This document shows positions 7,378-60,123 of a stretch of 64,000 nt of DNA, in pieces. The stretch covers positions 124,001-188,000 of the forward strand of contig CAJFTO010000002.1 in NCBI GenBank assembly GCA_904419955.1, given 5' to 3'. Source of the DNA: Candidatus Roslinia caecavium. GTDB lineage: Bacteria > Bacillota > Clostridia > Monoglobales > Monoglobaceae. Under the pieces are notes generated by a model, which saw nothing but the letters and a program-made list of their open reading frames with translations, did not search any database and was not told the DNA's origin. The position numbers were made by a program, and so were the translations under genes. Each line of letters opens with the position of its first letter. Within the stretch, counting starts at the first letter, position 1.

Positions 7378-7437
7378 AAAATATATACTTAGATTTCCGA
7401 TGTAACAGCCCGTCGGTAGATCTCCGCCTCTGTCCGA

Positions 7438-8148
7438 TCACTCGCCGAACAGTTCCGCGTTCTCTTCTTTGATACGCTGGCGTTCGGCCGCCTGCTCCTC
7501 CCTGATATTCGGATTCTGCTCATATAGATCTTCTATTAATCCGGGCAGCTCGTCCAGATCCACCGTCTTATTTTCGAACTCGCAGACCGCCGTCCCGTCT
7601 CCCTGCGGTATGTATTTCGCCTGCTCGATAGCGGAGAGAACGTAGTAATCCTCATTAGTTCTATGTCCGCTGTCGTCGCGTTTTAAAAATAACAGCGATT
7701 GCTCGCCCACGGTAAAGTCGGGCGTCCACTCGTCAAGACTTATTGTGTATTCGTCCTCGCCTTTATTAATTCTGAGCGTAATCTGATCTCCGATCGACGG
7801 CTCGCCGAATAATACCTCGTCTACGTCTATCACAATATCTGTTTGAAGTATGCCGCTGCTTATCTCGGGCGCGGTCCACTTACTCTCTAAAATCTCATCG
7901 ACCGTGCCTATAATTATAAGTTCTGAATTTAAAATCACATCGTTTATATCGCGCATTGGCAGAAGTCCGCTTCAAGCTATTATCTCTTTATCCGTATTTT
8001 GTATTTTATCGCTTACGTCGGTAGTCATTATTGGGGTTTCGGCATTGAATAAGCTGACCGGAAACCCGGTTCGGTAACAGATACACACGACCGCCGCAGC
8101 GCACAATATCAATGTTGTCGATACCAATATTTTTTTTCTCATATTCAT
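7438..8148 (-). pseudogene. Exported protein gene interrupted by an in-frame TGA
   Basis: On the minus strand GAGGGGCGG precedes ATG 8148 and opens a frame MNMRKKILVSTTLILCAAAV with a hydrophobic export signal. After 58 codons it meets TGA at 7974-7972. The same frame then continues without any other stop for 178 codons (ATG at 7956, then INSELIIIGTVDEI-like sequence) to a stop at 7438. The internal ATG has no binding site. The simplest reading is one secreted or membrane-anchored protein of about 236 residues broken by a nonsense change. The downstream part has alternating beta strands and an acidic, Glu/Gln-rich tail; I do not recognise the family. TGA is used as a normal stop elsewhere here (2320-2322), so recoding as an amino acid is not indicated. 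A base-calling error is possible. Confidence 0.65.
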
Positions 8149-8306
8149 CCGCCCCTCTTGTCTTTGAAGCCTCGAATAAAAAACTGACTTTTTGTTTTAT
8201 TATAACATATCAATTGTAAGCAATCAATGAATTATCAGAAAAATAATCACATTAATAAAATACAAGAAATCCAATTCATGATACAAACCAATAAAAATAT
8301 CTGCAA

Positions 8307-8338
8307 GGGCGACGCAATTTTCGCGCCGCCCAAACTTT
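8307..8338 (-). terminator. Terminator after the ABC-F gene (copy of the 7344 hairpin)
   Basis: Read on the minus strand, GGGCGGCGC pairs with GCGTCGCCC with one mismatch, directly overlapping the end of the ABC-F gene, with ATATTTTTATT a little further on. In the plus direction the hairpin is followed by AAACTTTTT, so it may work both ways. Confidence 0.6.
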
Positions 8339-9820
8339 TTAAATTTCCACAAACTTATCCGCTATATTGGAACAAAATTCCTCGTCGTGCTCGACAAAAA
8401 GCAAAGTCGGCTTGAACCTCAGTATAAGCTCCTCGATCTGTATCCGCGAAATAATATCTATATAATTCAGCGGCTCGTCCCAGACGTATAAATGCGCCCG
8501 CTCCGACAGGCTTCCGGCAAGCATGACCTTCTTCTTTTGGCCCTCGCTGTAGCTTGAAATATCATACTTGAATACCTCTCTCGGAAAATCCAGCTTCCTA
8601 AGTATCGTCATAAACAGCGTCTCGTCGACGCCGAGGCTCCCGGCGTACTCTTTAAGCGTTCCGCTGAGACCGGACGAGTCTTGACGGACGTAAGATATTT
8701 TAAGCGTTTCGCTCCTTAGCGCTTCTCCGGAATACTCGATATCTTCGCCGACTATCAGCTTAAGAACGCTCGACTTGCCCGCGCCGTTTCCGCCTCTTAA
8801 GCATACGCGTTCTCCCCGCTCCACCGAAAAACCGATCCCGCCGCAGACTTTCCTGCCGTCGTAGAAGATCGAAACGTTATTTAGCTCGACCAACGTACTT
8901 TTCGGAAAACTGAGCGGCGACAGTTTGAGCTCGCCCGAATATTCCACATTTTTCAGCAACGTCCCCTTCTCTTCCGCGGCCTTGAGCTGTCTTGACGCTA
9001 TATTCTTAGCCCGCTTCATCAGCTTTGCAGACTTATGTCCTACGTAGCCTTTGTCGATCTTATTGACTCCGGTCGCGCCTCTGCCGACGTTTTTGCTCTT
9101 TTCTGTTTTATGCGACCATTTCTCGGTCTCGGCCGCGGACGCCTTAAGTCTCTTTATATCCCTTTTAAGTTCCTCGTTCTTCTTAAGTTCCGCGCGGTTT
9201 TTTAGATCGAACTCCTCTTTCCAGGAAGAATAACTCCCCCTTACGACCTCGATCCCGCCTCTGTTGATCGAAAGTATATGATCCGTACAGCCGTCGAGCA
9301 GCCGTCGGTCGTGCGAGACTAAAATGAAACCCTTCTTTTTACTTAAATAATCGCGGAGCGCGTTTTTGGCATAGACGTCTAAATGATTTGTCGGCTCGTC
9401 CAAAAGCAAAAAACCGTTTTCCTTTAAAAACAACGCGGCGATCATCAGCTTCGTCCGCTCCCCTCCCGACAGGACGGAAAACGGCTTATACAACGACTCT
9501 ATGTTCATGTTCAGATACGAAACTTCCCTTACTATCTCCCAGTCGTCCCGGCCGCATATGCTCTCCGCGACGGCGATCGCGGCTTCGTTCTCGTTCAACG
9601 CCCGATAGGGAAAGTAGTTAAACTCCACTTCGGCGGTTATCTTACCGGAATACTCGTACTCTCCGAGCAAAAGCCGTAAAAACGTGGTCTTTCCTCTGCC
9701 GTTTCGTCCGATAAATCCGAGCCTCCAGTCCGTATCGATCTTAAAGTTTACGTTTTCAAACACGTTCTCAGAAGCTCCGTCGTAGCCGAAAGTTAAATTA
9801 TCTACGCTTATAATCGACAC
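8339..9820 (-). CDS. ABC-F ATPase, Lsa-like ribosome protection type
   Basis: 493 residues from GTG 9820, which sits seven bases after AAGGAGGG; the upstream in-frame ATG overlaps that binding site and is rejected. Two ATPase cassettes and no membrane segments. First cassette: IGRNGRGKTT (Walker A), LSGGERTK (signature), LLLDEPTNHLD (Walker B). Second: GGNGAGKSS, SEGQKKK and VWDEPLNYID. A charged interdomain linker lies about residues 185-290. The N-terminus (DTDWRLGFIGRNGRGKTT) resembles the Lsa group, which displaces lincosamide, streptogramin A or pleuromutilin drugs from the ribosome. The long leader with a tiny ORF and a hairpin upstream also fits a drug-responsive ABC-F gene. Antibiotic resistance is inferred; housekeeping ABC-F proteins exist too. 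Confidence 0.85.
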   Translation of the reverse strand: MSIISVDNLTFGYDGASENVFENVNFKIDTDWRLGFIGRNGRGKTTFLRLLLGEYEYSGKITAEVEFNYFPYRALNENEAAIAVAESICGRDDWEIVREVSYLNMNIESLYKPFSVLSGGERTKLMIAALFLKENGFLLLDEPTNHLDVYAKNALRDYLSKKKGFILVSHDRRLLDGCTDHILSINRGGIEVVRGSYSSWKEEFDLKNRAELKKNEELKRDIKRLKASAAETEKWSHKTEKSKNVGRGATGVNKIDKGYVGHKSAKLMKRAKNIASRQLKAAEEKGTLLKNVEYSGELKLSPLSFPKSTLVELNNVSIFYDGRKVCGGIGFSVERGERVCLRGGNGAGKSSVLKLIVGEDIEYSGEALRSETLKISYVRQDSSGLSGTLKEYAGSLGVDETLFMTILRKLDFPREVFKYDISSYSEGQKKKVMLAGSLSERAHLYVWDEPLNYIDIISRIQIEELILRFKPTLLFVEHDEEFCSNIADKFVEI

Positions 9821-11052: not shown

Positions 11053-11233
11053 GTATAAAATGCGAGATATATTTATATAAGAGTGACAAATTTAGCGGTC
11101 GTTCAAATAAACTCTATCTCCGCCCACAGTAAAATTTTGGCTTGTTTGGGCGGCGGTATAAACAATTAGCTTGAAAATTAGACGTACTGCATATATAATA
11201 GACGGCAAATACGATAAGACGGAAGGTGATGGA

Positions 11234-14200
11234 ATGAAAACAGGCGCAAAATCAAAACCAATATATATGGATACAAACTATTCGTTCGAGGAACGCGCGG
11301 CGGATCTCGTCTCGCGCATGACTTTGGAAGAAAAGGTCGCCCAGATAGGGAATGTCGCGGCGGCGGTCAACCGTCTCGGCGTGAGCGGTTACGACTACTG
11401 GCGCGAAGCTCTGCACGGAGTTGCGAGACAGGGAAAGGCGACCAGCTTCCCGTCGCCGCTCTCGATGTCCAATACCTGGAACCGAAAGCTGATACATAAA
11501 ATGGCGGATATGACCGCGACCGAAGCGAGGGGCAAGAACAACAATCTCAACCTGTCCTACTGGAGCCCGACGGTCAACATGGCGCGCGACCCGCGCTGGG
11601 GCAGGAACGAGGAGACGTTCGGCGAGGATCCGTACCTGACCGGTCAGCTCGGTATCCAGTTCGTCAGCGGTATGCAGGGCGACGACGAAAAATATCTTAA
11701 GACGATAGCCACCGTCAAGCATTTTATAGCCAACAACTGTGAAAAGGAGCGCCGCGGCGGCACGTCCGTCATGAGCGAAAAAACTCTTCGCGAATACTAC
11801 GCAAAGGTGTTTCAATATATAGTAGAGGGCGCGGATCCGGCGTCGGCGATGAGTTCGTACAACGCGGTCACTCTAACAAGGGGCGGAGAGACCGTATTCG
11901 ACTACGTCCCGTCCGCCGCGAACCCGTATACGCTGATAGATCTGCTGCGACGCAACTGGGGCTTTAGCGGATATGTGACCGGCGACTGCGGAGCCGTCGC
12001 GGACCTAAACGACAAGGCGGCGTATAAACAGACGCTGTTCCCGGGCGAGGATATTTCCAAGATCCCTCAGTCCGCCACTATAGCCAAAAGCATACAGGCT
12101 GGCAACGATATAGACTGCGGAAACGCGTCGAGACCGAACGGACTCGAAGCCGTTCTAAACGGATATATGTCAGAAGAAGAGCTTAATATAGCCGTATACA
12201 GGCTATTTTTGCAGAGGATGCGCGTCGGAGAATTCGATCCAGATCCGCGCTACGGAGACATAACCCCGGACGTACTCGAAAAGGACGAACACATAGCGGT
12301 CGCCGAAGAGCTGGCAGAGGAATCCTGGGTCCTGCTTAAGAACGAGGACAATATTCTGCCGCTGAAAAAAGATATTAAAAACATGGCCCTTGTAGGCGCG
12401 CTGGCCGACGAAGTAGTCCTCGGCGACTATTCGAGTACTCCCGATATACAGATAACCCCGTACGAGGGTATCAAGCGGGCTCTCTCAGAGACCCGCCCGG
12501 ACGCCGAACTGAATTATCTCGGAGGAGTAACGGACGACGCCGCTTTATTCAGTATAAAGGACTTAGAATTTGTACTTAGCGGCGGCGGGATCAGAAAAAT
12601 AGATCTTTCCAAGGTAGATTCGGTATCGGGCGCCGTTCTTTCTGAAAGCGGCTTTGAAAACGTTACCCGAAAATGCCGCACTGTCGTCAAGGACGTGGAT
12701 TTTTCAAACGTCGAATCCGTCAGAGTTAAATTTTCGGCGTTCGACGCCCCGGGCGGCTCGCTAACCTTACAATACGGAAACGGCGGCCCCGCCGTGGCGG
12801 TATTAAATTCCAAACCCGCGCGAACTGAGGACGAATATATAGAATGCAGCGCCGAATACACCGGAACCTCCGGCGGCTACAACCAGACTGCAGACCTGTA
12901 CATATCGGCGGCCGCAAACTCAACCGAGTTTACTATTGAAAAATACAAGGATCGGCTCGACGAAGCCGACATAATAATCGCATACGCGGGGACCACGCTC
13001 GAGGATTCCTCCGAATCGCACGACCGCGAAAACATACTTCTGCCAAGATCTCAATCGCATGTTCAGGCTTTGACGGATATGTACCCGGACAAAACAGCGG
13101 TCGTTATGCAGACGGTGGGGCAAATAGATACCGCTCCGTTCGAGAAGGGTGCCAAAGCGATACTCTGGACCTCGTACAACGGTCAGACTCAGGGAAGCGC
13201 CATAGGCAGGATACTAACCGGCGCGGCTAACCCTTCCGGCAGACTAACGACGACATGGTATAACGCGTCGGACCTTGAAAAAATGCCGCTAAACGCAGAG
13301 AGAACTTTCACCGAAAACGGCGTAAGCAAATACTACAACAATTATAATATTCAGCAGGCGGACGGATTTCCGGGCAGGACCTACCAGTACTATTCGGGCA
13401 AGTCCTCGTATCCTTTCGGTTACGGTCTCGGTTATACTGAATTTGCATACTCAAATCCGACCGTCTCCAAAAGCGTTATACGCCCCGGAGAAATTCTAAC
13501 GGTATCGATCGACGTAACAAATACCGGATACGTTCCCGGCAAGGAGACCGTTCAGCTTTACGTATCCTTCCCGGATCCCGACGGGATAAACGAGCCGCTT
13601 AAACAGCTTAAAGGGTTTTCAAAAATATCCCTGCTTCCGGGCGAAACCAAAACCGTCGAGCTGGAGCTTGACAGCTCGGACTTTACGCTGTTCGATGAGA
13701 AAGAACAACGAATATATGTTCCAAACGGCGCGTATTCATTGAGTATAGCCAAAAACGCGGACGACGAAAACGCTTTAACGGTCGGCGTTCAAGTACGCGG
13801 AAGTCTGCCTTCCGTTCTCAAGACCGTTAAAGCCATACCCACCGGGCTAACTGTAAACGGTCTGTCCACGTTCGAGGACGGCGCTCCCTCCGAACCGACG
13901 GATCATATCGACTCGCGCGTCTCCGCCGTAATGAGCGACGAACTTGTCTACAATCTAAGCTCCTCTGAGGCGACCGTAGTATATGAAAGCAAAAATCCCG
14001 ATATCGCATTCGTAGACGATGCCGGGCGGGTAGTTTCGGGAATAAAAGAGGGCGTTACGACCATTTCGGCTTCGGTTACAATAGACGGCGTTACCAAATC
14101 GGATTCTTTCCCGGTCGTCTGCAAGCTCAAACAGGCGGTAACCAAAAAGATGCGCGAGGAGTTCGGCTCCGTTTTAGACGGCGAACTCGGTTCATATAAC

Positions 14201-16285
14201 AAAGACGCGTACTCAATCGAAGCGTACAATCGGGTCGCGGATATTGTAGAAAAAGCTAAGAACGACGCCGCGCTTTGCAGGGATATGGACGCGCTGAACG
14301 CGCTGCAAAGCTCCGCTTTGGAACAAATGCGAAGCGTCAAAGCCGAAAGGCTTACCGAAGCGTATACGATCTTTTCCGAAAACGGCGCGTATCTGAAAAA
14401 CGGCAGGATCGATTACGACGACGTCGGAGAAGGTATCCCGACATATAAAGCGGAACCGTCCGAGGTTATCGGCGCGGTTACGCGGAGCGCTCCGTACAAG
14501 ATAGCTCTGTCAGTTAAAGATGAAAAGGGAAATGTAAAAAAGAACGGTATCGTTTGGCGGCTTGAAAAGCTCGGCGGTTCAAAGCGGATTCCTGCGGTCA
14601 TAGAAGGCGGTACCGGCGAACTTACTATATATGAAAGCGGGCTTATTAAGATAAGCGCGATAGATATGGGCGAACTCAAATTCGGCGAGGCGGTAATCCA
14701 TATCAACACGCTGATAAAGACCGCGGACGACGCCGAAGAATCCAATATAAGCGCGTCTCTCCCCGGCGCAAGCGGCGATAAAGAGGGCGCAAACTGCATA
14801 TCTGAGACCAAAAACTACCGGCTGGAATTTAAGGACGTATTTGCCGAAGGTCTAAGCGGCATTAAAATACGCTGCTTGCCGAAAAACGGCGTTTCAACGA
14901 TCAACGTAAGTCTCGGCAGAAGTTCCGCGCCGCGCGATCTTTTGGGTTCCGCGACTGCAAAGGAGACGGGCGGACAGACCGGCTGGAGAGAAATTGAGAT
15001 AGGTATAGACGAGGGCGTTCTCGGGGGCGCAAAAAAGGATGAAAACGGTCTTACTACGCTATACGTGCAGATGAACGGCGCGGTATTCGACTACATGCGT
15101 CTTGAATACGAAGATATAAACGACGCAGTTCCGTATAAGATCGCGGAAATAACGGACGCGGACGGCGGAGTTATAGACGTATCGCTTAAATATATAGGTT
15201 CGAGCAGAGAGCCGCGCGGCGTTCTTACGGCTGTGATTTACGATAAAGACGGACGCGCCGCGTCGCATACGGAGTCCAAGGTCTGCGGCGGCGGGAAATA
15301 CCGTCTCGACGGCGGATACTCTCCCGGAGATAGGATATGCGTATTCGTCCTGAGCGACTCGGACGACGGCGAAGCGCTTTCAGAGCGGTTCGAGCATATA
15401 TATAATACGCCGAAACGGACGAACGTCATAGTATACAGCGCAAGCGACGAAAGATACGCCGGTTTCTTTACGGACAAAAACGGCGAGAAGCTGCCTGAGA
15501 TAGACGGGCTCACCGGATACGGCTTATACGAACGCCCGGACAGACGCGCCCCGTTTGACTTTGAGTACGGCGGCAAAGTATATACATTCTCAAGCGCATG
15601 GCGCTCGCGAGAGGGAAACGAGACTCAGAGCTGCTTATTCTTCACTCCAAAAGCGTCCTGCTCGCTCACAGTAATATTCGACGGCAACGGAGGCGAAGGC
15701 AGAGCGCAGCATATCGTCCAAAACGGAGTAAAGCTATCTTCCGAAAACTCGACGGTAAACGGCGTAACCGTTCTCAGTCGCAGGATAACGGATCTATCGA
15801 GCCCGGTATATACCTACGGCGACGGTCAGAATAAAAATATCTACGCCTTGATAGTCGAGTACGACGACTGCGGCGGTTCGGACGACGGAGAGACCGAAAT
15901 AGTGAAACAAATTTCATGGAACGATTCAACCGTGAGATTGACGCGCAGTCTTACGAACGGAAATACAAAGCTGTCGGTCTCGGAGCTCGAAAACATATGG
16001 ACGGAATTAACGCCCTGTATGTTTAAAGAGAGCGATATAGTTTTGACCGGAGACGAGGAGTTCAGGATAAACGATATAGCCGTCTTTGGAGAAAATTTAT
16101 TCGCGGCGTGCGATAAGGGCGCGCTCCTTATCTTCAAAAACTGCATGAAATGCAATATACTAAAAAAGCCCTGCGAAGCCGACATAGCCGCTCTTTCGGT
16201 ACAAGGAAAGACGATATCCGGCTATGCCGAAAACGGCGATAAGCTGTTCGAGCTGGATCGGGACTTTTATGAAACAAAAAAATAA
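11234..16285 (+). CDS. Multidomain GH3 glycosidase without signal peptide (beta-xylosidase/glucosidase type)
   Basis: 1683 residues from ATG 11234 (GGAAGGTGATGGA upstream). The protein starts with MKTGAKSKPIYMDTNYSFEE, directly the GH3 domain, with no export signal. GH3 N-domain about residues 10-350 with YDYWREALHGVARQG and the nucleophile Asp251 in GYVTGDCGA; C-domain about 356-715, with an inserted carbohydrate-binding-like segment; Fn3-like about 730-815; Big_2-like about 894-960; CBM6-like about 1165-1290; further beta-sandwich regions to the end. The EALHGVAR motif is typical of GH3 beta-xylosidases. It is a paralogue of the gene at 53833 but lacks that protein's N-terminal modules and rhodanese tail. 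Binding modules in a protein with no signal are odd: either it acts inside the cell or export uses another route. A divergent AraC gene likely controls it. Confidence 0.87.
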   Translation: MKTGAKSKPIYMDTNYSFEERAADLVSRMTLEEKVAQIGNVAAAVNRLGVSGYDYWREALHGVARQGKATSFPSPLSMSNTWNRKLIHKMADMTATEARGKNNNLNLSYWSPTVNMARDPRWGRNEETFGEDPYLTGQLGIQFVSGMQGDDEKYLKTIATVKHFIANNCEKERRGGTSVMSEKTLREYYAKVFQYIVEGADPASAMSSYNAVTLTRGGETVFDYVPSAANPYTLIDLLRRNWGFSGYVTGDCGAVADLNDKAAYKQTLFPGEDISKIPQSATIAKSIQAGNDIDCGNASRPNGLEAVLNGYMSEEELNIAVYRLFLQRMRVGEFDPDPRYGDITPDVLEKDEHIAVAEELAEESWVLLKNEDNILPLKKDIKNMALVGALADEVVLGDYSSTPDIQITPYEGIKRALSETRPDAELNYLGGVTDDAALFSIKDLEFVLSGGGIRKIDLSKVDSVSGAVLSESGFENVTRKCRTVVKDVDFSNVESVRVKFSAFDAPGGSLTLQYGNGGPAVAVLNSKPARTEDEYIECSAEYTGTSGGYNQTADLYISAAANSTEFTIEKYKDRLDEADIIIAYAGTTLEDSSESHDRENILLPRSQSHVQALTDMYPDKTAVVMQTVGQIDTAPFEKGAKAILWTSYNGQTQGSAIGRILTGAANPSGRLTTTWYNASDLEKMPLNAERTFTENGVSKYYNNYNIQQADGFPGRTYQYYSGKSSYPFGYGLGYTEFAYSNPTVSKSVIRPGEILTVSIDVTNTGYVPGKETVQLYVSFPDPDGINEPLKQLKGFSKISLLPGETKTVELELDSSDFTLFDEKEQRIYVPNGAYSLSIAKNADDENALTVGVQVRGSLPSVLKTVKAIPTGLTVNGLSTFEDGAPSEPTDHIDSRVSAVMSDELVYNLSSSEATVVYESKNPDIAFVDDAGRVVSGIKEGVTTISASVTIDGVTKSDSFPVVCKLKQAVTKKMREEFGSVLDGELGSYNKDAYSIEAYNRVADIVEKAKNDAALCRDMDALNALQSSALEQMRSVKAERLTEAYTIFSENGAYLKNGRIDYDDVGEGIPTYKAEPSEVIGAVTRSAPYKIALSVKDEKGNVKKNGIVWRLEKLGGSKRIPAVIEGGTGELTIYESGLIKISAIDMGELKFGEAVIHINTLIKTADDAEESNISASLPGASGDKEGANCISETKNYRLEFKDVFAEGLSGIKIRCLPKNGVSTINVSLGRSSAPRDLLGSATAKETGGQTGWREIEIGIDEGVLGGAKKDENGLTTLYVQMNGAVFDYMRLEYEDINDAVPYKIAEITDADGGVIDVSLKYIGSSREPRGVLTAVIYDKDGRAASHTESKVCGGGKYRLDGGYSPGDRICVFVLSDSDDGEALSERFEHIYNTPKRTNVIVYSASDERYAGFFTDKNGEKLPEIDGLTGYGLYERPDRRAPFDFEYGGKVYTFSSAWRSREGNETQSCLFFTPKASCSLTVIFDGNGGEGRAQHIVQNGVKLSSENSTVNGVTVLSRRITDLSSPVYTYGDGQNKNIYALIVEYDDCGGSDDGETEIVKQISWNDSTVRLTRSLTNGNTKLSVSELENIWTELTPCMFKESDIVLTGDEEFRINDIAVFGENLFAACDKGALLIFKNCMKCNILKKPCEADIAALSVQGKTISGYAENGDKLFELDRDFYETKK

Positions 16286-24254: not shown

Positions 24255-27200
24255 CTATACCGCGGCAAGAACTACATTCTGTCCGCTGAGCTCGGCGGTA
24301 AATTCAGCCGAATTGACAGTTACTTTAGTTATATCCGGCGTAACGCCGCTCGCAAACGTTACTACGGCGTCGCCCGCCGCCGCGTTAGACGCGGGGGTTA
24401 TTGTTATAGCGTTAGTCAGAGCTCCGGTTATATTAACCGCGTTGCCCTTTGTCAAAGCTATATCCTGACCCTCGCCGACCGTTATATTTCCGCTTATCGA
24501 AACGGATACGTCCGTATTGGTTCTATTGGTATAGAGCAGAGCGCCCGCGCCGTTTCTGTTTTTGTTACCCTCAAATGTTCCGCCGTTTATCGCGACCGCC
24601 GCGTTGGTGGTGTATATAACGCCCGCGTTGGTCTCGTTATCGCTAAATATACCTCCGTTTACCGTCAAAGACGAAGTGTTGTCTCTTACTCTGAACAGCG
24701 CCGCTTGCTCCTGCGCCGAATCGGTTTCAGTCGTCAGCGCGCCCGCTGAGTTGCCGCTGAATACGCCGCCGTTTACCGTAAGCGTCGTTCTCTTCGCAAC
24801 GTCGGCTATGAGCCCGTACGTTGCGCGGCTCATATTACTGTACGCTACGCCCGGATTTAAAACGGCCGAGTTGGTCGAATTTCCCGCCGTATAGCAGCCT
24901 ATAAGCGGATTTATAGACGTATAGCCTTCGGCGTTGATAAAGGTCAGACTTACATTATCGTCGCTTCCGTCCGCAGAACCGATTATCACGTTACCGTTTC
25001 TTAAGAATATCGGACCCGCGTCCGCGACTGTCATTCCAGCCTGTTCTCTTCCGGCAACCGGAACCCTTGTGATTGTATGAGGCGTGCCGTCAGATACTAT
25101 TGCTACATATTTATTATCCGCTATCCAAATCTGTTCAGACAAATATGCGTCCGCCGTTATCACTACGGGGTTGGCCTGAGCGGTTTCAGCGCTGTCCGCA
25201 GCCGCAGCTTCAACCGCAGCCGCTATGGACGCGTATTCGGTCGATCCGACTCGAGCTACGTTTCCGCTCTGGTATACCGCTTCAAGGGTTATATCAGCGT
25301 CCGGCATAACGATGGTAAACTTGTCGGTAACCACCGCGGACTGATCCGCCGCGGATCTGTCAGCCCAAGCGGTCGTCTGAGTTCCGTCTACTTCGTAGGT
25401 ATATCTAACGCCTGCTATGTTCGAGCCGGCGACGTCCGCAGTCTCGATGTTAACAGTATCTCCGACGCGAGCCGTCTGAGCGTCTACAGTCATATTAGCT
25501 CCCGCAGTTACGTTGTGTTCAGGTACGGCCGTAGCTCCCGGATCCGCGCTCGGGCTCGCCGTAGGCTCGGCTGGTTCGCCGCCGTCTAAGTCTATATAGA
25601 TCTCAACCTCGTTAAATACTATCGCCGCCGACCAGTTTTGAATTATTATGTATCTGTACTTGCCGTCTGCGGAAGCGTTAGCTCCGGTAGGCTTTACCGG
25701 TCCTACTTCTACATAGTTTTCCTTATCCGTAGACGTTATATCGCTGGAGATAACGCTTACGCCATTTTGAGCCGTACCGTTTGATCTGAGTACGGTCATA
25801 AAGCTTTCTACGTTATCCGGTCTCGGCGGCAGCGTATTGCTTACGCCAACCATCGAGTTGCCCGTACCTCCGTTCGGGAAGTACGCTTTTATACTTGCGA
25901 TATCATACGCTTCGCCAAGGTCGAGCGCCACAAACGTCTGTCTTGTTATATTCGAAGCGTCGTCGTTTGTAACTATTCCGTTGAACAGCTTGCTGCAATC
26001 CGCGTGAACCGTCTCCTCGGGCTCGGTATTCGTACCTCTGTAATACGATAAGCTGTCCTCGGTTATATTTTCAACCTTACCGGTCTCCTGATTTATAGTT
26101 ATTCCGGTTCCCGGGGTCGATACCGGTTCTTCTGTAGCTCCCGGCTCGGGGCTCGCGCTCGCCGCAGGCTCCTCGGTCGGCTCTGCCGGTTCGTCTCCGC
26201 TAAGGTCTATATAGATCTCAAGCTCGTTAAGTCTTGCGCCCGGATTTGACCAGTTATATACCATCACGTATCTGTACTCGCCGTTTTCGTCCGCCGGCGC
26301 CGTTTCGGTTCCGCTTGGCGTCACCGGACCTACCGTTAAGTAGTTGATCGAATCCGTCGATACTACATCCGTCTCGTCGGCGATCACCGGAACTCCGTTC
26401 TGCGAGTCGCCTCTTACCCTTAGCGCGTTGATATATGTGTCTGCGCCGTTCTCCTTCGGGATCGGGTTGTTGCTTACGGCTACCATAGTTCCGTTGGAAT
26501 TTGTCTCGGAACCGTCTGCGATTATATCATGCCCGAAGTAAGTTCTGATCTTGCTTATCGGGTATTCCTGTCCCAGATCGATTACGAGATACTGCTGGTT
26601 CGACATTGAATCAAACACAACGTCCGTATCTCCGTCGAACAATGATCCCCAGTTTGCCGGCAGAGGATCTACAACAGTCGCGTCGGAGCCGCGATACGCC
26701 TTAACGTTGCTCTCCGTAATCCCCTCCACTTTACCGGTTTCCGGATCTATGGTTATTCCTGTAGGAGCCGTCGGTTGAGGCTCGGCGCTTGCCTCGGGCG
26801 GCGTCGTCGGATTTTCTGTCGGAGCCGGGCTCGGGCTTACTTCCGTTCCCGCTGTTGCCGACGGGCTCGGGCTTACCTCAGTTCCGCTGGTCGGCGCCGG
26901 GCTCGGCGTAGCCTCGACTTCCTCCGCCTCGGTTATTCTTATATTTCTTACGCTGACGCTTCCGTGGCTGCCTCTGAGAGTAAATGAGAATTTAGCCACG
27001 AGGGTCTCTCCGTCCTCAAGAACTCTGGATCCGGAGGTCCATGTGTAGCTCTGAGTCTCCCAATCCGCGTCGCTTACTACTTGATCGTGTATAAACGCTA
27101 CTCTGCCGTTGTTTCTTACCGGAGCCGGATCCATTCCGGTCGAATTGTCCGTAACAGCCGGCATATTCCCGTCGTTTGCCGTTACCGTGCTTTCGTTCGT

Positions 27201-29768
27201 ATAACGCGTGTCGGCGTAGAGATAGAAACCGTTGTTTACGCGCTCCGTTATATTGGCCTGCTCGTCAAACGTTATCTGATACTCCGTATCCGGCTTGATA
27301 TTCTTGATCGCTACCGACATCGTATACAATACTCCGTTTTCATCCGCGCTGAGATCGACGTTTGGATCGCTCGTTATGGTCATAACGCCGTCTTCGAGCG
27401 TATAACTTGCGCCTGCGTTGTCGCCGTTTGACTTATACCATACTATGCTGTAGTCGTCCGCCTCGCCGGTAAACTCGTCCGCGAGCGTATCCCATACGTC
27501 CGGCTCTGTCGCCTCGGCCGTAGCCGTCGGGGCTGTCGTCGGAGCCGCCGTGGGTTCCAATGTCGCTTCCGGAGTCGGAGCCGCAGTAGGTTCCGTTGTC
27601 GCGTCCGGAGTCGGAACGGGTTCCGTACCGCTTGTCGCCGTCGGAGCCGCCGTAGGTTCTGTTGTAGCATCCGGAGTCGGAGCTATGGTCGCCGTCGGAA
27701 GTGGATCCGGCATGCTGTCGGTATCGACGTATATCTCAAGCTCGTTAAGGCTTGCCGACGCAGACCAGTCGTATATGATTATGTATCTGAATTCATAGCT
27801 CTCAACAGCGATCGGTTCGATAGGTCCTACTTCTACGTAGTTAGTCGCGTCCTGAGAGGTTGTATCCATATCTATGATGGGAATACCGCTTTGAACTGAA
27901 CCGTTTGTGCGGATAATATCAAAGCGGTCGTTTATCGTGCCGTCGTTGGATATCGCAACCATCGTGGTTCCGTTACCGCCGTTTGCCGAATTCGGGAAAT
28001 ATGCTTTTACCGAATTTATTCTATAGTAGTTGCCCAAATCGATAACCAGGAAGGTCTGGGTGCGTATACTGCTTACCTCGCTGTCGTCGTCGGTCACGCC
28101 GTTGAATATCCTAGAATATCCCATCGGCAGGCTCTCCTGAAGATTACCGGATCTGTCGTAATACTTCAAATCGGATTTGTTGATATTCAGGACCTTTCCG
28201 GTCTCGGGATCTATCGCGATATCAGCGTCCGGAGTCGGAGGCGCTACCGTGGTCACCTCGGGAACCACTACCAAGCTCAGGTCGGAAGCGCCTGCCGGTA
28301 TCTCGATATCCGCGGGGATAGAGATATTAACGCTGCCGGAGCCTATATAGCTGATCGCGCTCTCGTCTATAGCTATCGTCCGGGTCGCGCCCGACGAATC
28401 GGTATAACTGATATACGCGCCGGATACGCCGCTTACCGCATATTCCTCGTTCTCAGGCGTAAGCGTTACAGTTACGGTCTCGCCCGGAGTCACTCCGTCG
28501 AGGTTGCCGCTCGCCGTTACGCTGACCATATCGTCGCCGTCGGTATAGTATACCTCTTCGCCGGAGATAGAGCCTATCGACTGTACTCCCTCGTTTAAGG
28601 TATAGCACGCGTAGATCGTCGCGTCGCCTCTTACCGTGTACGGGAATCTAACCGCCGTACCGCTTCCGTCTCTCTCGGTGTTCCAGCCGGAGAACGTGTG
28701 GTTAAGCCTTGTCGGCTCGGCGGGTTCTTCGATCACCGCGCCGGATTCATACGTAGCCGTAACCGCCGCGTCGCCGTTAGCGAAGTCTATCGTGACTGTG
28801 TAGTCGGTCTCCGCCGTCGGGGTAGGCGTGGGATTACCGCCCGTGGAACCGCCGCCCGTCGAACCTCCGCCTGTCGAGCCGCCGCCCCAGCTACCGCCGC
28901 CGAAGAATATACCGCTCGACGAAGTGGAATCGTTATTCGAATACGGGTCGATTATCGTGCCGCTGTTACTCGAAAGTTCTACGTTAGGCGACATGTTTAC
29001 AACGTTGCCGTAGAACTGACAGCCGGTGAACTGGATCGTTCCGCTCGCCGAAGGCGATACTACAACTCCTTTAGCCACCAAACCGTTGCCCGTAACGCCG
29101 CCGCACTTGATCACGACTATACCGGGCACGTATTGATCGTTTATCTGGGTCGGAGATGTAACGTATAATTTTACTATATTATCGATTATGGTAATAAGCT
29201 CGGCGCGGGTGATATTATCCTGGGGTCTGAACTGACCGTTATCGCCCTGTATGTAACCCTCGCCGGTCATAGCGCCCACGTATGTACTCGCCCAGTCTGA
29301 GATCTGAGCGTAGTCGCCGTATTGGGTTATAGCCGCCTGCGAGGACGTAACGCTGAACGCTCTCGCTATCGCCGTCGCCGCTTCCTCGCGGGTCATGTTG
29401 GCGTTAGGCGCCATGGTACCGTCGCCGTTACCGTTTAATACGCCCGCCGCGTTCAGCTTGAGCGCCGCGTCCGCGTACCAATCCGACGAACTTACGTCGC
29501 TGAACGTATTAGAACTTGTCTCTGTGTAAGACAGAACGTTGTTGATAACCGTAGCCGCCTCGGCGCGGGTTATATTATCGTCGGGACGGAAGTATCCTTC
29601 GTAGCCCTGTATAACGCCCGTCTCGCTCCACTTGTCGATCGCGCTTTCCGCCCAGTGTCCGCTTGTGTCGCCGTACGTCGCTCCAAAGGCCGCGAAGCTC
29701 ATCGGAACCATCGTCAGGATCATGCAGACGGCTATGACGGAAGCCAAAAGACGTCTTCTCTTAGTCAT
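24255..29768 (-). CDS. SLH-anchored surface protein with discoidin-like repeats and beta-helix end
   Basis: 1837 residues; AAGGAGGT precedes ATG 29768. Signal peptide about residues 1-28 (RRRLLASVIAVCMILTMVP). Three SLH repeats (about 33-195; GHWAESAIDKW, FRPDDNITRAEAA) bind secondary wall polymer. A conserved module of about 70 residues follows, then a GGGS-rich linker (about 285-312) and an InlB-like repeat (HTFSGWNTERDGSGTAV). Three discoidin-like units start near residues 515, 1000 and 1220, each with an ETGKV start, LVIDLG or VALDLG and a LNELEIYID or FNEVEIYID end. A CBM4/9-like domain (about 760-925) lies between Thr/Pro-rich linkers. The last ~330 residues have NGGVFSGNS / NGGIFSDNE / NGGTFEGNK turns, a right-handed beta-helix. 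No catalytic motif was recognised; a carbohydrate-binding or adhesive display protein is likely. Confidence 0.87.
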   Translation of the reverse strand: MTKRRRLLASVIAVCMILTMVPMSFAAFGATYGDTSGHWAESAIDKWSETGVIQGYEGYFRPDDNITRAEAATVINNVLSYTETSSNTFSDVSSSDWYADAALKLNAAGVLNGNGDGTMAPNANMTREEAATAIARAFSVTSSQAAITQYGDYAQISDWASTYVGAMTGEGYIQGDNGQFRPQDNITRAELITIIDNIVKLYVTSPTQINDQYVPGIVVIKCGGVTGNGLVAKGVVVSPSASGTIQFTGCQFYGNVVNMSPNVELSSNSGTIIDPYSNNDSTSSSGIFFGGGSWGGGSTGGGSTGGGSTGGNPTPTPTAETDYTVTIDFANGDAAVTATYESGAVIEEPAEPTRLNHTFSGWNTERDGSGTAVRFPYTVRGDATIYACYTLNEGVQSIGSISGEEVYYTDGDDMVSVTASGNLDGVTPGETVTVTLTPENEEYAVSGVSGAYISYTDSSGATRTIAIDESAISYIGSGSVNISIPADIEIPAGASDLSLVVVPEVTTVAPPTPDADIAIDPETGKVLNINKSDLKYYDRSGNLQESLPMGYSRIFNGVTDDDSEVSSIRTQTFLVIDLGNYYRINSVKAYFPNSANGGNGTTMVAISNDGTINDRFDIIRTNGSVQSGIPIIDMDTTSQDATNYVEVGPIEPIAVESYEFRYIIIYDWSASASLNELEIYVDTDSMPDPLPTATIAPTPDATTEPTAAPTATSGTEPVPTPDATTEPTAAPTPEATLEPTAAPTTAPTATAEATEPDVWDTLADEFTGEADDYSIVWYKSNGDNAGASYTLEDGVMTITSDPNVDLSADENGVLYTMSVAIKNIKPDTEYQITFDEQANITERVNNGFYLYADTRYTNESTVTANDGNMPAVTDNSTGMDPAPVRNNGRVAFIHDQVVSDADWETQSYTWTSGSRVLEDGETLVAKFSFTLRGSHGSVSVRNIRITEAEEVEATPSPAPTSGTEVSPSPSATAGTEVSPSPAPTENPTTPPEASAEPQPTAPTGITIDPETGKVEGITESNVKAYRGSDATVVDPLPANWGSLFDGDTDVVFDSMSNQQYLVIDLGQEYPISKIRTYFGHDIIADGSETNSNGTMVAVSNNPIPKENGADTYINALRVRGDSQNGVPVIADETDVVSTDSINYLTVGPVTPSGTETAPADENGEYRYVMVYNWSNPGARLNELEIYIDLSGDEPAEPTEEPAASASPEPGATEEPVSTPGTGITINQETGKVENITEDSLSYYRGTNTEPEETVHADCSKLFNGIVTNDDASNITRQTFVALDLGEAYDIASIKAYFPNGGTGNSMVGVSNTLPPRPDNVESFMTVLRSNGTAQNGVSVISSDITSTDKENYVEVGPVKPTGANASADGKYRYIIIQNWSAAIVFNEVEIYIDLDGGEPAEPTASPSADPGATAVPEHNVTAGANMTVDAQTARVGDTVNIETADVAGSNIAGVRYTYEVDGTQTTAWADRSAADQSAVVTDKFTIVMPDADITLEAVYQSGNVARVGSTEYASIAAAVEAAAADSAETAQANPVVITADAYLSEQIWIADNKYVAIVSDGTPHTITRVPVAGREQAGMTVADAGPIFLRNGNVIIGSADGSDDNVSLTFINAEGYTSINPLIGCYTAGNSTNSAVLNPGVAYSNMSRATYGLIADVAKRTTLTVNGGVFSGNSAGALTTETDSAQEQAALFRVRDNTSSLTVNGGIFSDNETNAGVIYTTNAAVAINGGTFEGNKNRNGAGALLYTNRTNTDVSVSISGNITVGEGQDIALTKGNAVNITGALTNAITITPASNAAAGDAVVTFASGVTPDITKVTVNSAEFTAELSGQNVVLAAV

Positions 29769-53832: not shown

Positions 53833-56800
53833 ATGAAAACTCACAAAATTCTCTCGGCATTTTTGGCTATTGTGATGGTTTGCACATCTATCATAATACC
53901 GGCATACGCCGCAGAGACGACCGACGCGGCGACGCTTGCCGAAGATTTTGGCACGGTAACAAACAACGCCGACGGTTCGGTAACATTAAACTTCGGGCAA
54001 GACTCGATAACGACCAGCGGAGGCGGCGAAATCACGACAGATACCGTAAACGGCGGCGTTTTGAGACCCGACAATCTCAGAACGGACGCCAACGACCTCG
54101 CAGTCCTCACTCTGCCGTCAGTGACCCTGACCGGCTCGGGATATGACAAAGTTGAGATTTATGCCGGAAACAAAAACACGTCTAACGTTACCGTTAAGGT
54201 TGGAGAAACCGAGGTTGCGTCAATATCGAACGTGAATACCGGCAGCGATAACAACGCATGGTCTAACTTTCAACTGTTCACCGCGAATTTAAGCTATACC
54301 GAAGCGGAGGGTGCGGTTACCCTCAACATCTCAGGAGTAGGTGGAAAAACGTACTGCGGCAACTATGTTTACGTAAGATTCTACAACTCCGGCGCGCCGG
54401 CCGTTTCTCCGGATCCGTCCGCGAGCGAAGAACCCTCGGCTCCCTCAGCGTCCCCCGAATCCGAGCAGCCATACTCGATCACCGGCGCGGAATTCAGCGA
54501 CGATCAGACTCTGAGCGTCACATACTCAAAGCAGGAAGACGCTCCCGAATCGGCAGTACTCTTAGCGGCCACGTATACGGATACAAACGAAGATCAAATG
54601 ATCGACTTTAATCAGGTCGATATAGACGGCAGCGGCTCCCAGACGATCGCGCTTGCAAAGCCGGAGACGGGTATTGTTAAGCTGTTTATATGGGACGGAA
54701 CAAATTCGCTCCAGCCGCTCAGCAATACCAGAAAACTCTCGGTCAATATCAGTAGCGGCGACCCGATATACATGGATACAAGCTACTCTTTCGAGGAGCG
54801 CGCGGCGGATCTTGTTTCAAGAATGACCCTTGAAGAAAAGGTTTCGCAGCTCGGTTATAAAGCTCCGGCTATAGAGAGACTCGGCGTTTCTGCATACGAT
54901 TATTGGAAAGAAGCTCTGCACGGCGTTGCAAGACAAGGCAAGGCTACGTCGTTCCCGACGGCGCTCTCGCTTTCCAACACATGGAACCGCGATCTTATCT
55001 ACACTGTCGCGGACGTGATATCCACCGAGGCCAGAGCTAAGAACAACAGATACAATCTTTCATACTGGAGTCCGACGGTCAATATGGCCCGCGACCCGAG
55101 ATGGGGCAGAAACGAAGAGACCTACGGCGAGGATCCGTACCTCTCGAGCCAGATCGGCGCAGAGTTTGTAAAGGGTATGCAGGGCGACGATCCCACATAT
55201 CTTAAGACGATCGCGACGCTTAAGCACTTCGCGGCGAACAACAACGAGACCAGCCGCAGCAGCGGCTCGTCCATGATGACCGAATTCAACTTCAGGAACT
55301 ACTACACAAGAGTATTCCAAGACATCACAGAAATAGTTATGCCGGCTTCGGTAATGGCTTCATATAACGGAACGTCTATCACCAGAAACGGAGAATTTAT
55401 TTACAACTTCATTCCTTCGGCCGCAAATTCGTATCTGCTTCAAGATCTGCTCAGACGCAACTGGGGATTCGACGGATACGTAACGAGCGACTGCGGCGCG
55501 GGCGAATACGCTTGGGGCAGCAACACGAGAGAACCTAATCCCGCCTTCCAGCTGGGAACTCTCGGCAGTACTACGCTTCCTACCGAACAGTATGTAGCGG
55601 CGTTTTTCCAGAACGGACTCAACCTCGAATGCAACCTAAGCGGCGGAAACATATCGACATCGTACGGCGTTGCGGCTGTCGAGAACGGATACTTAAGCGA
55701 AGAAGAACTTGAACGCGTCGTATACGAGCTGTTCCTGCAGAGATTCAGAACGGGCGAATTTGACGACGGCGCTACATATCAGGATATCTCTTCAAGCGAG
55801 ATAGAGACCGACGAGAACGTAGCGGTCGCTGAAGAAGCCGCTGAAGAATCTTGGGTTCTTCTCAAGAACGACGACAATATGCTGCCTCTGAGCGAGGATC
55901 AGACTGATAACATTGCGATAGTTGGTAACTTAGCCGACGAGATAGTCCTCGGCGACTATACGGGCTCGCCCACAAAGACCACTACCCCTGTAGACGGCAT
56001 AACCGAAGAGGTAAAGAGCGTTAATCCCAACGCGGAAGTAAATCACTATGGCGTTGTTACCGACGACACCCTGCTGTTTAACGTTAAAAGCATCAACTTC
56101 GTATACAAAGACGGATCTAAGAAACCCGTCGATTTGACAAAGGCTACGGACGTAAGCGGGATGACTCTGACGGAAGACGGCTCTCTTATCAACGTTACTC
56201 AGACGGCTTCGGCTGTAATTAAAGACGTCGATTTCAACGGCGCGGTAAACGTCGAAATCGAAATGTCGACGGGAAGCAGAATCGGCGGAACGCTCAACAT
56301 CTCGTACGGCGAAGTCGGCACGTTTGCGGCAGTAAGCACAACGCCGACGGACAGTACCGACACGTACGTCGCTTGCAGTCTTCCTCAGAATATCGAGGAC
56401 ACCGGCGGTTACGACGGCGTAAACGATCTGGTCATCACCGCGACGGCGGCTGTAAGGGATTTCTCGGTAGAGAACTTCAAAACGCAGCTCGACGCGGCGG
56501 ACGTTATTATAGCGTACGCGGGCACGGTTCCGAAGAATTCGACGGGCTTAGGCGAATCGGACGCTCAGGAAGGTAAAGACAGAAGCAATATCGACCTTCC
56601 CGCTTCGCAGTCTCACGTTCAAGCGCTCTGCGACGCGTATCCCGACAAGACCGTAGTAGTTATGTCGACGGTCGGTCAGATGAATGTAGAGCCGTTTATG
56701 GATAAGTGCAAAGCTATACTGTGGACGTCGTATAACGGTCAGACTCAGGGCACGGCTCTGGCGAAGATACTGCTCGGCGAGGCTAATCCTTCGGGCAGAC

Positions 56801-59800
56801 TGTCGACGACATGGTATCAAAACAGCGACGTCGATAAAATGGAGCTCAGCAACAGTTCAAATCAGACTTTAGGCGGCATAACGGGTAGATACACAGACTA
56901 CAACATCCAGGCGGACGGCTCTAATCCGGGTCATACCTACCAGTATTACATAGGAGATCCGATCTATCCGTTCGGTTACGGACTTAGCTACACAAGCTTT
57001 GAATATTCAAACCCGACGATCGACCAGACCAGCGTAGACGCGAACGGAACGGTAACGTTCACTGTAGACGTAACGAATACCGGCGCCGTAACCGGCCAGG
57101 AAGTCGTTCAGCTCTACGTTTCGCATCCGGACGCGGGCGTTGGAACAACTCCGGCAAAACAGCTTAAGGGCTTCGAAAAGATCGAGCTTCAGCCGGGCGA
57201 GAAACAGACGGTTTCGATCAGCCTTAACGTAAGAGATATGTATCTGTTCAGCGAGACGGAGCAGAAGGATATCGTTCCGACCGGAACATACACGGCGTAT
57301 CTCGCTAAAAACGCGGACGACGAGACAAATGCGATCGACTTTAACGTAACGGGTACGCTGGCTTCGACGCTTAAGACGGTTCAGGCTATCCCCGACGGCG
57401 TTTCGGTAAACGGACTTATCCGCGAAGACGGCACGGCGCTCGAACCGGTTACTCAGATCGATTCCGGTCTCTCGGCTATAATGAGCGACGAGGTATGGGT
57501 AAATCTTAACGACGCAGACGTCAGATACGAGAGTTCAAACAGTAACGTTGCATCGGTAGACGCAAACGGCATAGTAAGATCCGGCGTATACGAGGGCGTA
57601 GCGACCATCACCTGCACGGTAACGGTCGACGGAGTATCCGTATCGGATTCGTATCCGGTAGTAAATAAGCTGGAGATCAAACCGAGCGTGGAAGAGATCA
57701 ATAACGCGCTGGCTCAGCTCAAAGCGGAATACGACAGATTATCCGCTTCAAAGGACGCGTATTCGGAAACGAACTGGAACGAGATCGAGAAGATCTACAA
57801 CAACGGCGTAAACGGTATCAATAACGCCACTACTCAGTCTGAACTCGCGTCGATAGTCGCAGAAAAGATCAACAACATGAACTCCGTTATTATGGATAAC
57901 CTGTCCAACACCTATACTATAAGTTCGGTCAATCCGGAATTTATCAAGAACGGAGTTATAGACTACTCTGAAAACGGCATACCGATGTACGACGGAGCTA
58001 ACGGAACGATCACCAACTCCAATCCTTACAGCGGTATCCAGCTTCAGGCGGCCGACGAGGACGGAAACATTATCGACAACTCGAAACTGGTATGGCAGAT
58101 CAACAAGTTTGACTCGTCGTCGCGTAGGGTTGCAGATATAAACAGCGAAACGGGCGAACTTACCGTATACGGAAACGGCATCATCCAGATCACGGCCGCA
58201 AACCTTGAAGATATGACCTGCGGCACGTTGATGGTTCAGGTAAATATGCAGATAGAGGGCGAGTACGCCGATAACGCAAACGGCGCGGATCTCACGGATT
58301 CTCAAGGCGCCTGCAGCGGCGGCAACGACGCGGGAAGCACGGCGGATTCGTGGATCGAATATAAATCGGTTAAGCTCTCCAACTTAGATAGCCTTATCGT
58401 CAGATACGCGGGCAGAAACGCCGGTCAGATATACGTCAGCCTTGAGAGAAACAGCGATCCCGAAAACCTGATCGCATCCGGCAACGCGACCGCGACGGGC
58501 GCATGGGGAACATGGTCCGACCTCGAGCTCACTCTCAACGCGGAGAACCTGTACAACGCTCAGGTAAACGGACTGCTCGACGAATACGGCTGCGCGGATA
58601 TCTACATCCAGACCAACGGCACAAACCTCGATTACTTCAGATTGAATTATATCGAGAACAACGACGAAATACCTTATACAATAAACGGCGTTTTGAATAA
58701 GACAGGAGGCAGGATGAAGGTAACGCTCGGCTATCGCGGAAGCGTTCTGGCTACGGACGTTAACCTGACTGCGACGATAAACGGACAGACTCCGGTATCC
58801 ACGACCGTCAGAGGAACCGGCGAATTTGAAATAGCTACCGGCGCAACCGAAGGCCAGACCGTAAGCCTTGTCGTGACCGACGCTGACGGCGCTCCGCTCT
58901 CAGAGGTATACGAGCAGGTATGGCATGAACCGGTTGACAGCGAGATCGTAGTTTATACGCTAAATAGTACCGAATACGACTATACTGTTCTCTCGGGCGG
59001 ATCCGACACTACGCAGTACGCCGATACAGTAAACGGACTTAGCGGCTATGGTTCATGGGCAGTCGTAGATCGTTCGGTTGATTATACTTACAGCGACGTG
59101 AACGAAAAGACTTATGATTACACATTCACTAAGGCTTGGCAGGCCGGCGGAGGAAGCACGACCAACCGTTGCTTCTACTTCACGCCGAAAGCGCCCTGTA
59201 AAGTAACCGTATTATTTAGCGGCGGCGACGCTTCGCGCAGCATGACGATCTACCAGAGCGACGATAATATGATCACGCAGCCGGGCACGGGATCCGTTAA
59301 AGATTTCAGCCTTGAAATAACCGATACTTCGACGCCGGTATACGTATACGGCGGCAGCAGCAACAAACAGCTTTACGCTATAATCGTAGAATACTACGGC
59401 CAGCAGGCTACGACAAGCGAGGACTCCGGCGCGGCGGTCGCCGGGTCCGACGAAGTCGAGGACTACGACAGACCGGTTCAGTATATAGATTGGAACGGAA
59501 CTCAGATCACGCTCACTAAGAACGACTTAACGGGCGAGTCGAAGGTTTGGTATACGAATATACTCGGCACGCGCACGCAGCTAAGCACGGAATATTTCGA
59601 GACTTCCGACGTCGAGTACGGCGCCGACGACAATTATAACATTAACAAACTCGCGGTATACAACGGCAGACTCTACGCGAGCTGCGACGACGGTTTGGTC
59701 ATCGTATTTACCGACTGCGTAAAGTGCTACCAGCTTAAAAAGCCGACCGATATCGACATAAAAGAGATGAGCATCTCTGAAGACGGCGTCATGTATATCA

Positions 59801-60123
59801 GCGACGGCGTAACCGAACAGCAGCTCAACATGTCCGACCTTGGCGCGGACAGCATAAAGGCCGACGAAGCGACGGTTCTCGCCGAGGACGGAGCGATCCT
59901 CATAGACGTCCGCTCGGCTGAAGAGTTCGCCGAAAAGTCGGTCGAGGGCTCGGTGAACATCCCGGTCGATCAGATAGAAGCGGGTCTTGCGGATTACGAC
60001 CAAGACTCGACGCTGATATTCTACTGCTCGGCGGGCTCAAGGGCCGCGAAAGCGGTCGAAACGGCCGAGGCTATGGGATTTACCAACATTTATAACCTCG
60101 GAAGCATAGACGACCTCTTATAA
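53833..60123 (+). CDS. Secreted multidomain GH3 glycosidase with C-terminal rhodanese domain
   Basis: 2096 residues; AAGGAGG precedes the ATG. Signal peptide about 1-26 (HKILSAFLAIVMVCTSIII). N-terminal binding-like sandwich (about 35-198), Pro/Ser linker, a module ending LFIWDGTNSLQPL (about 216-300), then GH3: N-domain from about 315 with YDYWKEALHGVARQG and nucleophile Asp553 in YVTSDCGAG; C-domain about 665-1055; Fn3-like; Big_2-like near 1210-1280; CBM6-like about 1480-1610; further sandwiches. From about 2005 to the end is a rhodanese domain: ILIDVRSAEEFAEKSVEGS, then FYCSAGSRA with active Cys2065. Rhodaneses carry sulfur on that Cys and are normally cytoplasmic single-domain or paired enzymes. 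Fusion to an exported glycosidase is unusual. Likely beta-xylosidase or glucosidase activity outside the cell. No convincing promoter was seen in 53620-53832. Confidence 0.88.
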   Translation: MKTHKILSAFLAIVMVCTSIIIPAYAAETTDAATLAEDFGTVTNNADGSVTLNFGQDSITTSGGGEITTDTVNGGVLRPDNLRTDANDLAVLTLPSVTLTGSGYDKVEIYAGNKNTSNVTVKVGETEVASISNVNTGSDNNAWSNFQLFTANLSYTEAEGAVTLNISGVGGKTYCGNYVYVRFYNSGAPAVSPDPSASEEPSAPSASPESEQPYSITGAEFSDDQTLSVTYSKQEDAPESAVLLAATYTDTNEDQMIDFNQVDIDGSGSQTIALAKPETGIVKLFIWDGTNSLQPLSNTRKLSVNISSGDPIYMDTSYSFEERAADLVSRMTLEEKVSQLGYKAPAIERLGVSAYDYWKEALHGVARQGKATSFPTALSLSNTWNRDLIYTVADVISTEARAKNNRYNLSYWSPTVNMARDPRWGRNEETYGEDPYLSSQIGAEFVKGMQGDDPTYLKTIATLKHFAANNNETSRSSGSSMMTEFNFRNYYTRVFQDITEIVMPASVMASYNGTSITRNGEFIYNFIPSAANSYLLQDLLRRNWGFDGYVTSDCGAGEYAWGSNTREPNPAFQLGTLGSTTLPTEQYVAAFFQNGLNLECNLSGGNISTSYGVAAVENGYLSEEELERVVYELFLQRFRTGEFDDGATYQDISSSEIETDENVAVAEEAAEESWVLLKNDDNMLPLSEDQTDNIAIVGNLADEIVLGDYTGSPTKTTTPVDGITEEVKSVNPNAEVNHYGVVTDDTLLFNVKSINFVYKDGSKKPVDLTKATDVSGMTLTEDGSLINVTQTASAVIKDVDFNGAVNVEIEMSTGSRIGGTLNISYGEVGTFAAVSTTPTDSTDTYVACSLPQNIEDTGGYDGVNDLVITATAAVRDFSVENFKTQLDAADVIIAYAGTVPKNSTGLGESDAQEGKDRSNIDLPASQSHVQALCDAYPDKTVVVMSTVGQMNVEPFMDKCKAILWTSYNGQTQGTALAKILLGEANPSGRLSTTWYQNSDVDKMELSNSSNQTLGGITGRYTDYNIQADGSNPGHTYQYYIGDPIYPFGYGLSYTSFEYSNPTIDQTSVDANGTVTFTVDVTNTGAVTGQEVVQLYVSHPDAGVGTTPAKQLKGFEKIELQPGEKQTVSISLNVRDMYLFSETEQKDIVPTGTYTAYLAKNADDETNAIDFNVTGTLASTLKTVQAIPDGVSVNGLIREDGTALEPVTQIDSGLSAIMSDEVWVNLNDADVRYESSNSNVASVDANGIVRSGVYEGVATITCTVTVDGVSVSDSYPVVNKLEIKPSVEEINNALAQLKAEYDRLSASKDAYSETNWNEIEKIYNNGVNGINNATTQSELASIVAEKINNMNSVIMDNLSNTYTISSVNPEFIKNGVIDYSENGIPMYDGANGTITNSNPYSGIQLQAADEDGNIIDNSKLVWQINKFDSSSRRVADINSETGELTVYGNGIIQITAANLEDMTCGTLMVQVNMQIEGEYADNANGADLTDSQGACSGGNDAGSTADSWIEYKSVKLSNLDSLIVRYAGRNAGQIYVSLERNSDPENLIASGNATATGAWGTWSDLELTLNAENLYNAQVNGLLDEYGCADIYIQTNGTNLDYFRLNYIENNDEIPYTINGVLNKTGGRMKVTLGYRGSVLATDVNLTATINGQTPVSTTVRGTGEFEIATGATEGQTVSLVVTDADGAPLSEVYEQVWHEPVDSEIVVYTLNSTEYDYTVLSGGSDTTQYADTVNGLSGYGSWAVVDRSVDYTYSDVNEKTYDYTFTKAWQAGGGSTTNRCFYFTPKAPCKVTVLFSGGDASRSMTIYQSDDNMITQPGTGSVKDFSLEITDTSTPVYVYGGSSNKQLYAIIVEYYGQQATTSEDSGAAVAGSDEVEDYDRPVQYIDWNGTQITLTKNDLTGESKVWYTNILGTRTQLSTEYFETSDVEYGADDNYNINKLAVYNGRLYASCDDGLVIVFTDCVKCYQLKKPTDIDIKEMSISEDGVMYISDGVTEQQLNMSDLGADSIKADEATVLAEDGAILIDVRSAEEFAEKSVEGSVNIPVDQIEAGLADYDQDSTLIFYCSAGSRAAKAVETAEAMGFTNIYNLGSIDDLL

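Follow-up and report, generated by a model that had tools for sequence, protein, structure and literature searches.

A two-part cysteine module of blade and rhodanese accompanies xylosidase-type GH3 glycosidases of Monoglobaceae and other Clostridia

The window, a 64,000-nt stretch of DNA from Candidatus Roslinia caecavium, encodes a secreted multidomain GH3 glycosidase whose tail consists of a cysteine-bearing beta domain, here termed the cysteine blade, and a rhodanese domain (Table 1). Together they form a conserved two-part cysteine module that is well supported as a partner of xylosidase-type GH3s, whether as a fusion or as the product of a neighboring gene. Neither Pfam nor NCBIfam describes this recurrent GH3 partner as one family. 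While its domains are known, their combination appears to be new to the searched libraries and papers, among which none dealt with rhodanese-GH3 fusions or Monoglobus rhodaneses. Irrespective of the mechanism by which it acts, a recurrent partner module of GH3 enzymes is thereby defined.

Table 1. Features of the module-bearing GH3 gene and of its paralogue, in window positions.
Feature	Position	Strand	Basis
Secreted multidomain GH3 ORF, 2096 aa, with C-terminal cysteine blade and rhodanese	53833..60123	+	Pfam, ORF
Signal peptide MKTHKILSAFLAIVMVCTSIIIPAYA	53833..53910	+	Judged by eye from the sequence, without a predictor
GH3 N-terminal domain	54910..55497	+	Profile match
GH3 C-terminal domain	55855..56991	+	Profile match
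Fn3-like domain	57100..57309	+	Pfam, above cut-off
Big_2 domain	57508..57627	+	Pfam, above cut-off
Cys554, right after the nucleophile Asp553 (TSDC)	55492..55494	+	Alignment with PcBxl3 Cys268
Cys600 (NLEC), putative disulfide partner of Cys554	55630..55632	+	Alignment with PcBxl3 Cys300
Cysteine blade, beta domain without Pfam call	59476..59829	+	Homology to the last part of stand-alone propeller-like lipoproteins
Cysteine trio C1951, C1962, C1965 (C-x10-C-x2-C) in the blade	59683..59727	+	Alignment
Rhodanese domain PF00581, residues 2012-2089	59866..60099	+	Pfam
Active-site Cys2065 codon, loop CSAGSR	60025-60027	+	Sequence
Paralogue GH3 without signal peptide, blade kept, rhodanese lost	11234..16285 (ORF 11162-16282)	+	Pfam, tree

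The original prediction of a rhodanese domain at the end of an exported GH3 is borne out, since the tail scores 55.6 bits against the PF00581 cut-off of 22.2 (E 8e-15) and a signal peptide is recognized by eye. Both Pfam domains of the catalytic part assign it to GH3 (GH3_N, 118.4 bits vs. a cut-off of 27; GH3_C, 154 bits vs. 31), and, as had been claimed, the frame is unbroken across the junction, the ORF running without a stop into the rhodanese tail. From the list of parts given at the time, the GH3, Fn3-like and Big_2 domains stand, all of them above their cut-offs, but CBM6 does not: Pfam calls it in a paralogue on contig C9 and not in the window protein. Likewise, the rhodanese had been placed correctly, but the traveling unit begins near 59476 rather than at 59830, and only half of the module had been seen. 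The conserved block comprises ~120 residues of beta structure with the three cysteines, followed by the rhodanese. The blade is predicted beta structure without a Pfam call, and the stand-alone forms of the module, described below, give only weak Pfam matches to propellers.

The fold of the tail is predicted with high confidence. An AlphaFold2 model of 227 aa, built from 26 sequences, reaches a mean pLDDT of 93 and a pTM of 0.84, and its last 90 residues match solved rhodaneses, including GlpE, PspE, TSTD1 and CoADR-RHD, with Z 13–15 and an rmsd mostly of 1.2–1.9 over ~90 residues; the structure-match list (VIA) is full of rhodaneses and says little on the blade. A six-residue loop with the active-site cysteine (CSAGSR) is present, as expected of an active thiosulfate sulfurtransferase, and the rhodanese of the window protein may be catalytically active. 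Furthermore, the cysteine trio and the rhodanese cysteine are both kept in 59 of 60 distinct full modules, the single exception (in genome G057) having a stop codon in frame where the blade gives way to the rhodanese. At the Arg position of the loop, 51 of the 60 modules have Arg, three Lys and five Trp, the last all belonging to paralogue group C (see below). The earlier phrase 'rarely exported' does not fit rhodaneses as a whole, as PspE is periplasmic and relatives have rhodanese proteins of ~145–184 aa with lipoprotein-like starts.

A family search returned four rhodanese matches in the source genome itself, one of which forms the C-terminus of another GH3 (2061 aa, contig C9). Long ORFs with the same tail, in some cases cut by contig ends, are present in 16 of 38 genomes of the family from four genera, as well as in other families; GH3s with a rhodanese tail occur in 15 further species of the family besides the source genome. 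Three paralogue groups are distinguished: the exported groups A, to which the window protein belongs, and B, to which the C9 protein belongs, and group C (~1684–1786 aa), which has no signal peptide. In a collection of named genomes, the tail is found in uncultured Monoglobus sp., Candidatus Monoglobus merdigallinarum and other uncultured Clostridia, with the nearest relative of the window protein in Candidatus Monoglobus merdigallinarum (88% in the GH3 region). Beyond the family, a sample of 391 genomes from the class contained the blade in seven more genomes, and a single other family had it in 10 of 70; viral contigs gave no relatives. Because the junction recurs in independent genomes at 60–65% identity, a misassembly, frameshift or chimera at this point is ruled out, and the reading of the tail as an assembly chimera or a functionless chance fusion retains a negligible probability. 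In several Monoglobus genomes (L149–L162), an exported protein of ~430 aa and then a GH3 of 775–785 aa without a signal peptide lie downstream of the fused GH3.

The module is also encoded separately beside GH3 genes. A short exported module gene (259–322 aa) lies directly upstream of a same-strand GH3 gene at loci L165 and L175–L178; at L178, ~20 bases with a ribosome-binding-site-like GGAGG separate the two. The GH3 partners of L175–L178 align with the window protein up to residue 1854 and end just before the start of the module. At L171, the module is located behind the C-terminal part of such a GH3 protein, with one dockerin-like gene in between. In genomes G190, G244 (two loci), G442 and G657, the module ends an exported protein of 428–531 aa with propeller-like repeats and, in most cases, a lipoprotein-type N-terminus, which is again encoded directly upstream of a same-strand GH3. 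The propeller-rhodanese gene of G057, interrupted by its one in-frame stop, is of the same kind. This genome also holds a 144-aa remnant upstream of a second GH3 (L229:7685-8116), in which the lipoprotein start is joined to the last residues and the middle is deleted. Several split loci additionally carry sugar ABC transporter, sugar-binding and two-component genes (named by eye). As the loci were found by module similarity and not via GH3, the linkage is not circular, although the similarity search may have missed more diverged modules far from GH3; with only 4–6 GH3 genes per genome, chance adjacency is negligible. The pairing of module and GH3 looks deliberate.

The paralogue within the window had been reported to lack the rhodanese, and its ORF indeed ends after the blade. 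Of the two histories proposed for it, gain or loss in one copy, loss applies: in the GH3 tree the paralogue is sister to group C (SH-aLRT 99), the five members of which included in the tree all bear blade and rhodanese, and since it also keeps the blade, it must have lost its rhodanese. No rhodanese remnant was seen downstream. The tree gives no resolved relations among groups A, B and C and the short split clade, and fusion and fission are therefore not ordered. Group C GH3s of ~1700 aa (L056–L061, L063, L075 and window 11234–16285) have surface-type domains, but in none of the species seen is a signal peptide evident.

Of the NCBIfam models, xylan 1,4-beta-xylosidase Xyl3A (NF041776, E 6.8e-143) scores best for the GH3 region of the window protein, with 477.5 bits that lie below the equivalog cut-off of 1250. 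Two cysteines are invariant in all 56 GH3s compared, fused or split, one directly after the nucleophile Asp and the other ~46 residues on. In the window protein, this xylosidase-type pair, Cys554 and Cys600, aligns with Cys268 and Cys300 of 7vc7 (counted from the printed alignment); from the residue numbering, 7vc6 and 7vc7 are taken to be PcBxl3. The nucleophile of PcBxl3 is described as residue 267, and a disulfide bond as lining the beta-face of xylose in subsite -1 (PMC8913315). Cys268 and Cys300 are probably the cysteines of this bond, and Cys554 and Cys600 are predicted to form a disulfide beside the catalytic nucleophile that would line the sugar-binding pocket, a prediction for which the alignment is used instead of the GH3 model (mean pLDDT 79). 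PcBxl3 and TrXyl3A share with the window GH3 the catalytic domain, the nucleophile Asp followed by Cys and the second aligned Cys, with the subsite -1 disulfide in the xylosidases, but have no rhodanese, blade or bacterial surface domains. A restriction of the nucleophile-adjacent cysteine to module-linked GH3s was considered and rejected, as it is also present in same-type GH3s that have no module. The motif is not seen in other GH3s (~780 aa; L230) encoded by these genomes.

Among known systems, the closest is PspE of E. coli (NF007627, TIGR02981), likewise an exported single rhodanese domain with one active cysteine, which is the third solved-structure match by sequence to the window tail (2jtq; Z 13.3) and is known to support disulfide formation without DsbA (PMC5403849). 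Unlike the window rhodanese, which is joined to a cysteine blade and a GH3, PspE occurs free, as a protein of 85 aa with a single cysteine, encoded in a stress operon. At 42.5 bits against 102, the window rhodanese falls outside the PspE equivalog. For NF045521 (rhoda_near_glyco), by its short name a rhodanese family near glycosidase genes, the score is 36.9 bits against a cut-off of 145. NF045728 (F510_1955 family glycosylhydrolase) matches the repeat region of the stand-alone form weakly (19.5 vs. 175). The names of these two families include neither a GH3 fusion nor a cysteine blade. Rhodaneses are also fused to catalytic domains in CoA-disulfide reductase-RHD, in persulfide dioxygenase-rhodanese and in a beta-lactamase-fold protein (3tp9); the partners in the former two act on sulfur or thiol metabolites and, unlike in the window protein, none of the three fusions has a glycosidase partner.

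With a dithiol as acceptor, rhodanese produces sulfide and a disulfide (PMC2593051). In cells that lack DsbA, disulfides are restored when periplasmic PspE is overproduced (Chng et al., 2012, cited after PMC5403849). Profile searches of 15 genomes, which covered DsbA and VKOR only, found DsbA in one and VKOR in none, leaving most genomes without a hit. Based on the dithiol chemistry, the PspE precedent and the near-absence of DsbA and VKOR hits, the module is therefore tentatively favored as a dedicated thiol-oxidizing or persulfide-handling partner, similar to PspE, that makes or keeps the GH3 disulfide. The rhodanese cysteine would accept sulfane sulfur from a donor such as thiosulfate and carry it as a persulfide which, directly or via the blade CxxC, would convert a dithiol into a disulfide and set sulfide free. 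The dithiol in question would be Cys554/Cys600 beside the catalytic nucleophile, with the GH3 pair as the putative target of the rhodanese and sulfur as the presumed oxidant. In anaerobes that lack DsbA and VKOR, an exported enzyme would in this way bring along its own DsbA-like means of oxidation or maintenance. A more far-reaching version is rather doubtful; here a dedicated persulfide-driven oxidase domain would form or mend the active-site disulfide in the glycosidase that carries it, so that in anaerobic gut Clostridia the DsbA pathway would be replaced one enzyme at a time. If the proposed oxidizing role is right, it would show how an anaerobe without DsbA and VKOR could form an active-site disulfide in an exported fiber-degrading enzyme, and exported rhodaneses, the role of which is unsettled even for PspE, would gain a concrete, testable substrate. 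Several observations count against the mechanism: the window paralogue keeps the GH3 cysteine pair despite the loss of its rhodanese; the absence of a signal peptide from this paralogue and from group C in several species does not fit an extracellular-only role; GH3s of the same type at L226, L227 and L232 have the nucleophile-adjacent cysteine with no module beside them; five group C copies have Trp in place of the loop Arg; and the disulfide of fungal xylosidases arises with no rhodanese involved.

Alternatively, blade and rhodanese could have a non-catalytic role in capping the GH3 or binding it to a partner at the surface, with the rhodanese fold as a scaffold. In favor of this, most stand-alone forms are lipoproteins whose repeats resemble a propeller, a fold that commonly serves in binding; moreover, some group C copies have lost the loop Arg, and the window paralogue does without a rhodanese. 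However, a pure scaffold would need neither the catalytic cysteine, present in all but one of the distinct full copies, nor the loop Arg or Lys, present in 54, and such a role is somewhat unlikely. The same retention of the cysteine weakens the folded cap put forward in the original prediction, the other suggestion of which, redox or sulfide handling, is still the best class of explanation. An extracytoplasmic thiol or persulfide switch or sensor is an unlikely candidate, in which sulfide or redox conditions would modify Cys2065 or the trio and thereby tune the GH3 or, in stand-alone forms, report to neighboring regulators. Gut habitats are rich in sulfide, all four module cysteines are conserved, and stand-alone forms lie near response regulator, sensor and sugar-binding or ABC transport genes (L184–L188; named by eye). 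Conversely, the fused forms carry no signaling partner in the same protein. Cyanide detoxification is a very improbable function, in which the GH3 would hydrolyze cyanogenic plant glycosides and the rhodanese would turn the released cyanide into thiocyanate. The latter is the classical rhodanese reaction, and several of the genomes, from isolates named Lapin, probably come from herbivorous hosts. However, the GH3 resembles xylosidases and is part of large proteins with CBM6 and Big_2 domains, the stand-alone forms sit with sugar ABC transporters, and PspE and GlpE bind cyanide poorly and do not confer resistance to it (PMC2593051).

Elsewhere in the source genome (L006 on contig C44, ~7350–8953), the gene for a 103-aa rhodanese without a signal peptide precedes those for a membrane protein similar to CcdA and a thioredoxin similar to TlpA, the latter with WCPPC; through these products, named by eye, reducing power might cross the membrane. 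The window also encodes a GH43 beta-xylosidase-type protein (277–2322, + strand) with ankyrin repeats (residues 33–118) before the GH43 domain, an unusual pairing, and a 1837-aa protein (24255–29768, - strand) with three SLH, Flg_new and F5/8-type domains, which is likely anchored to the surface layer.
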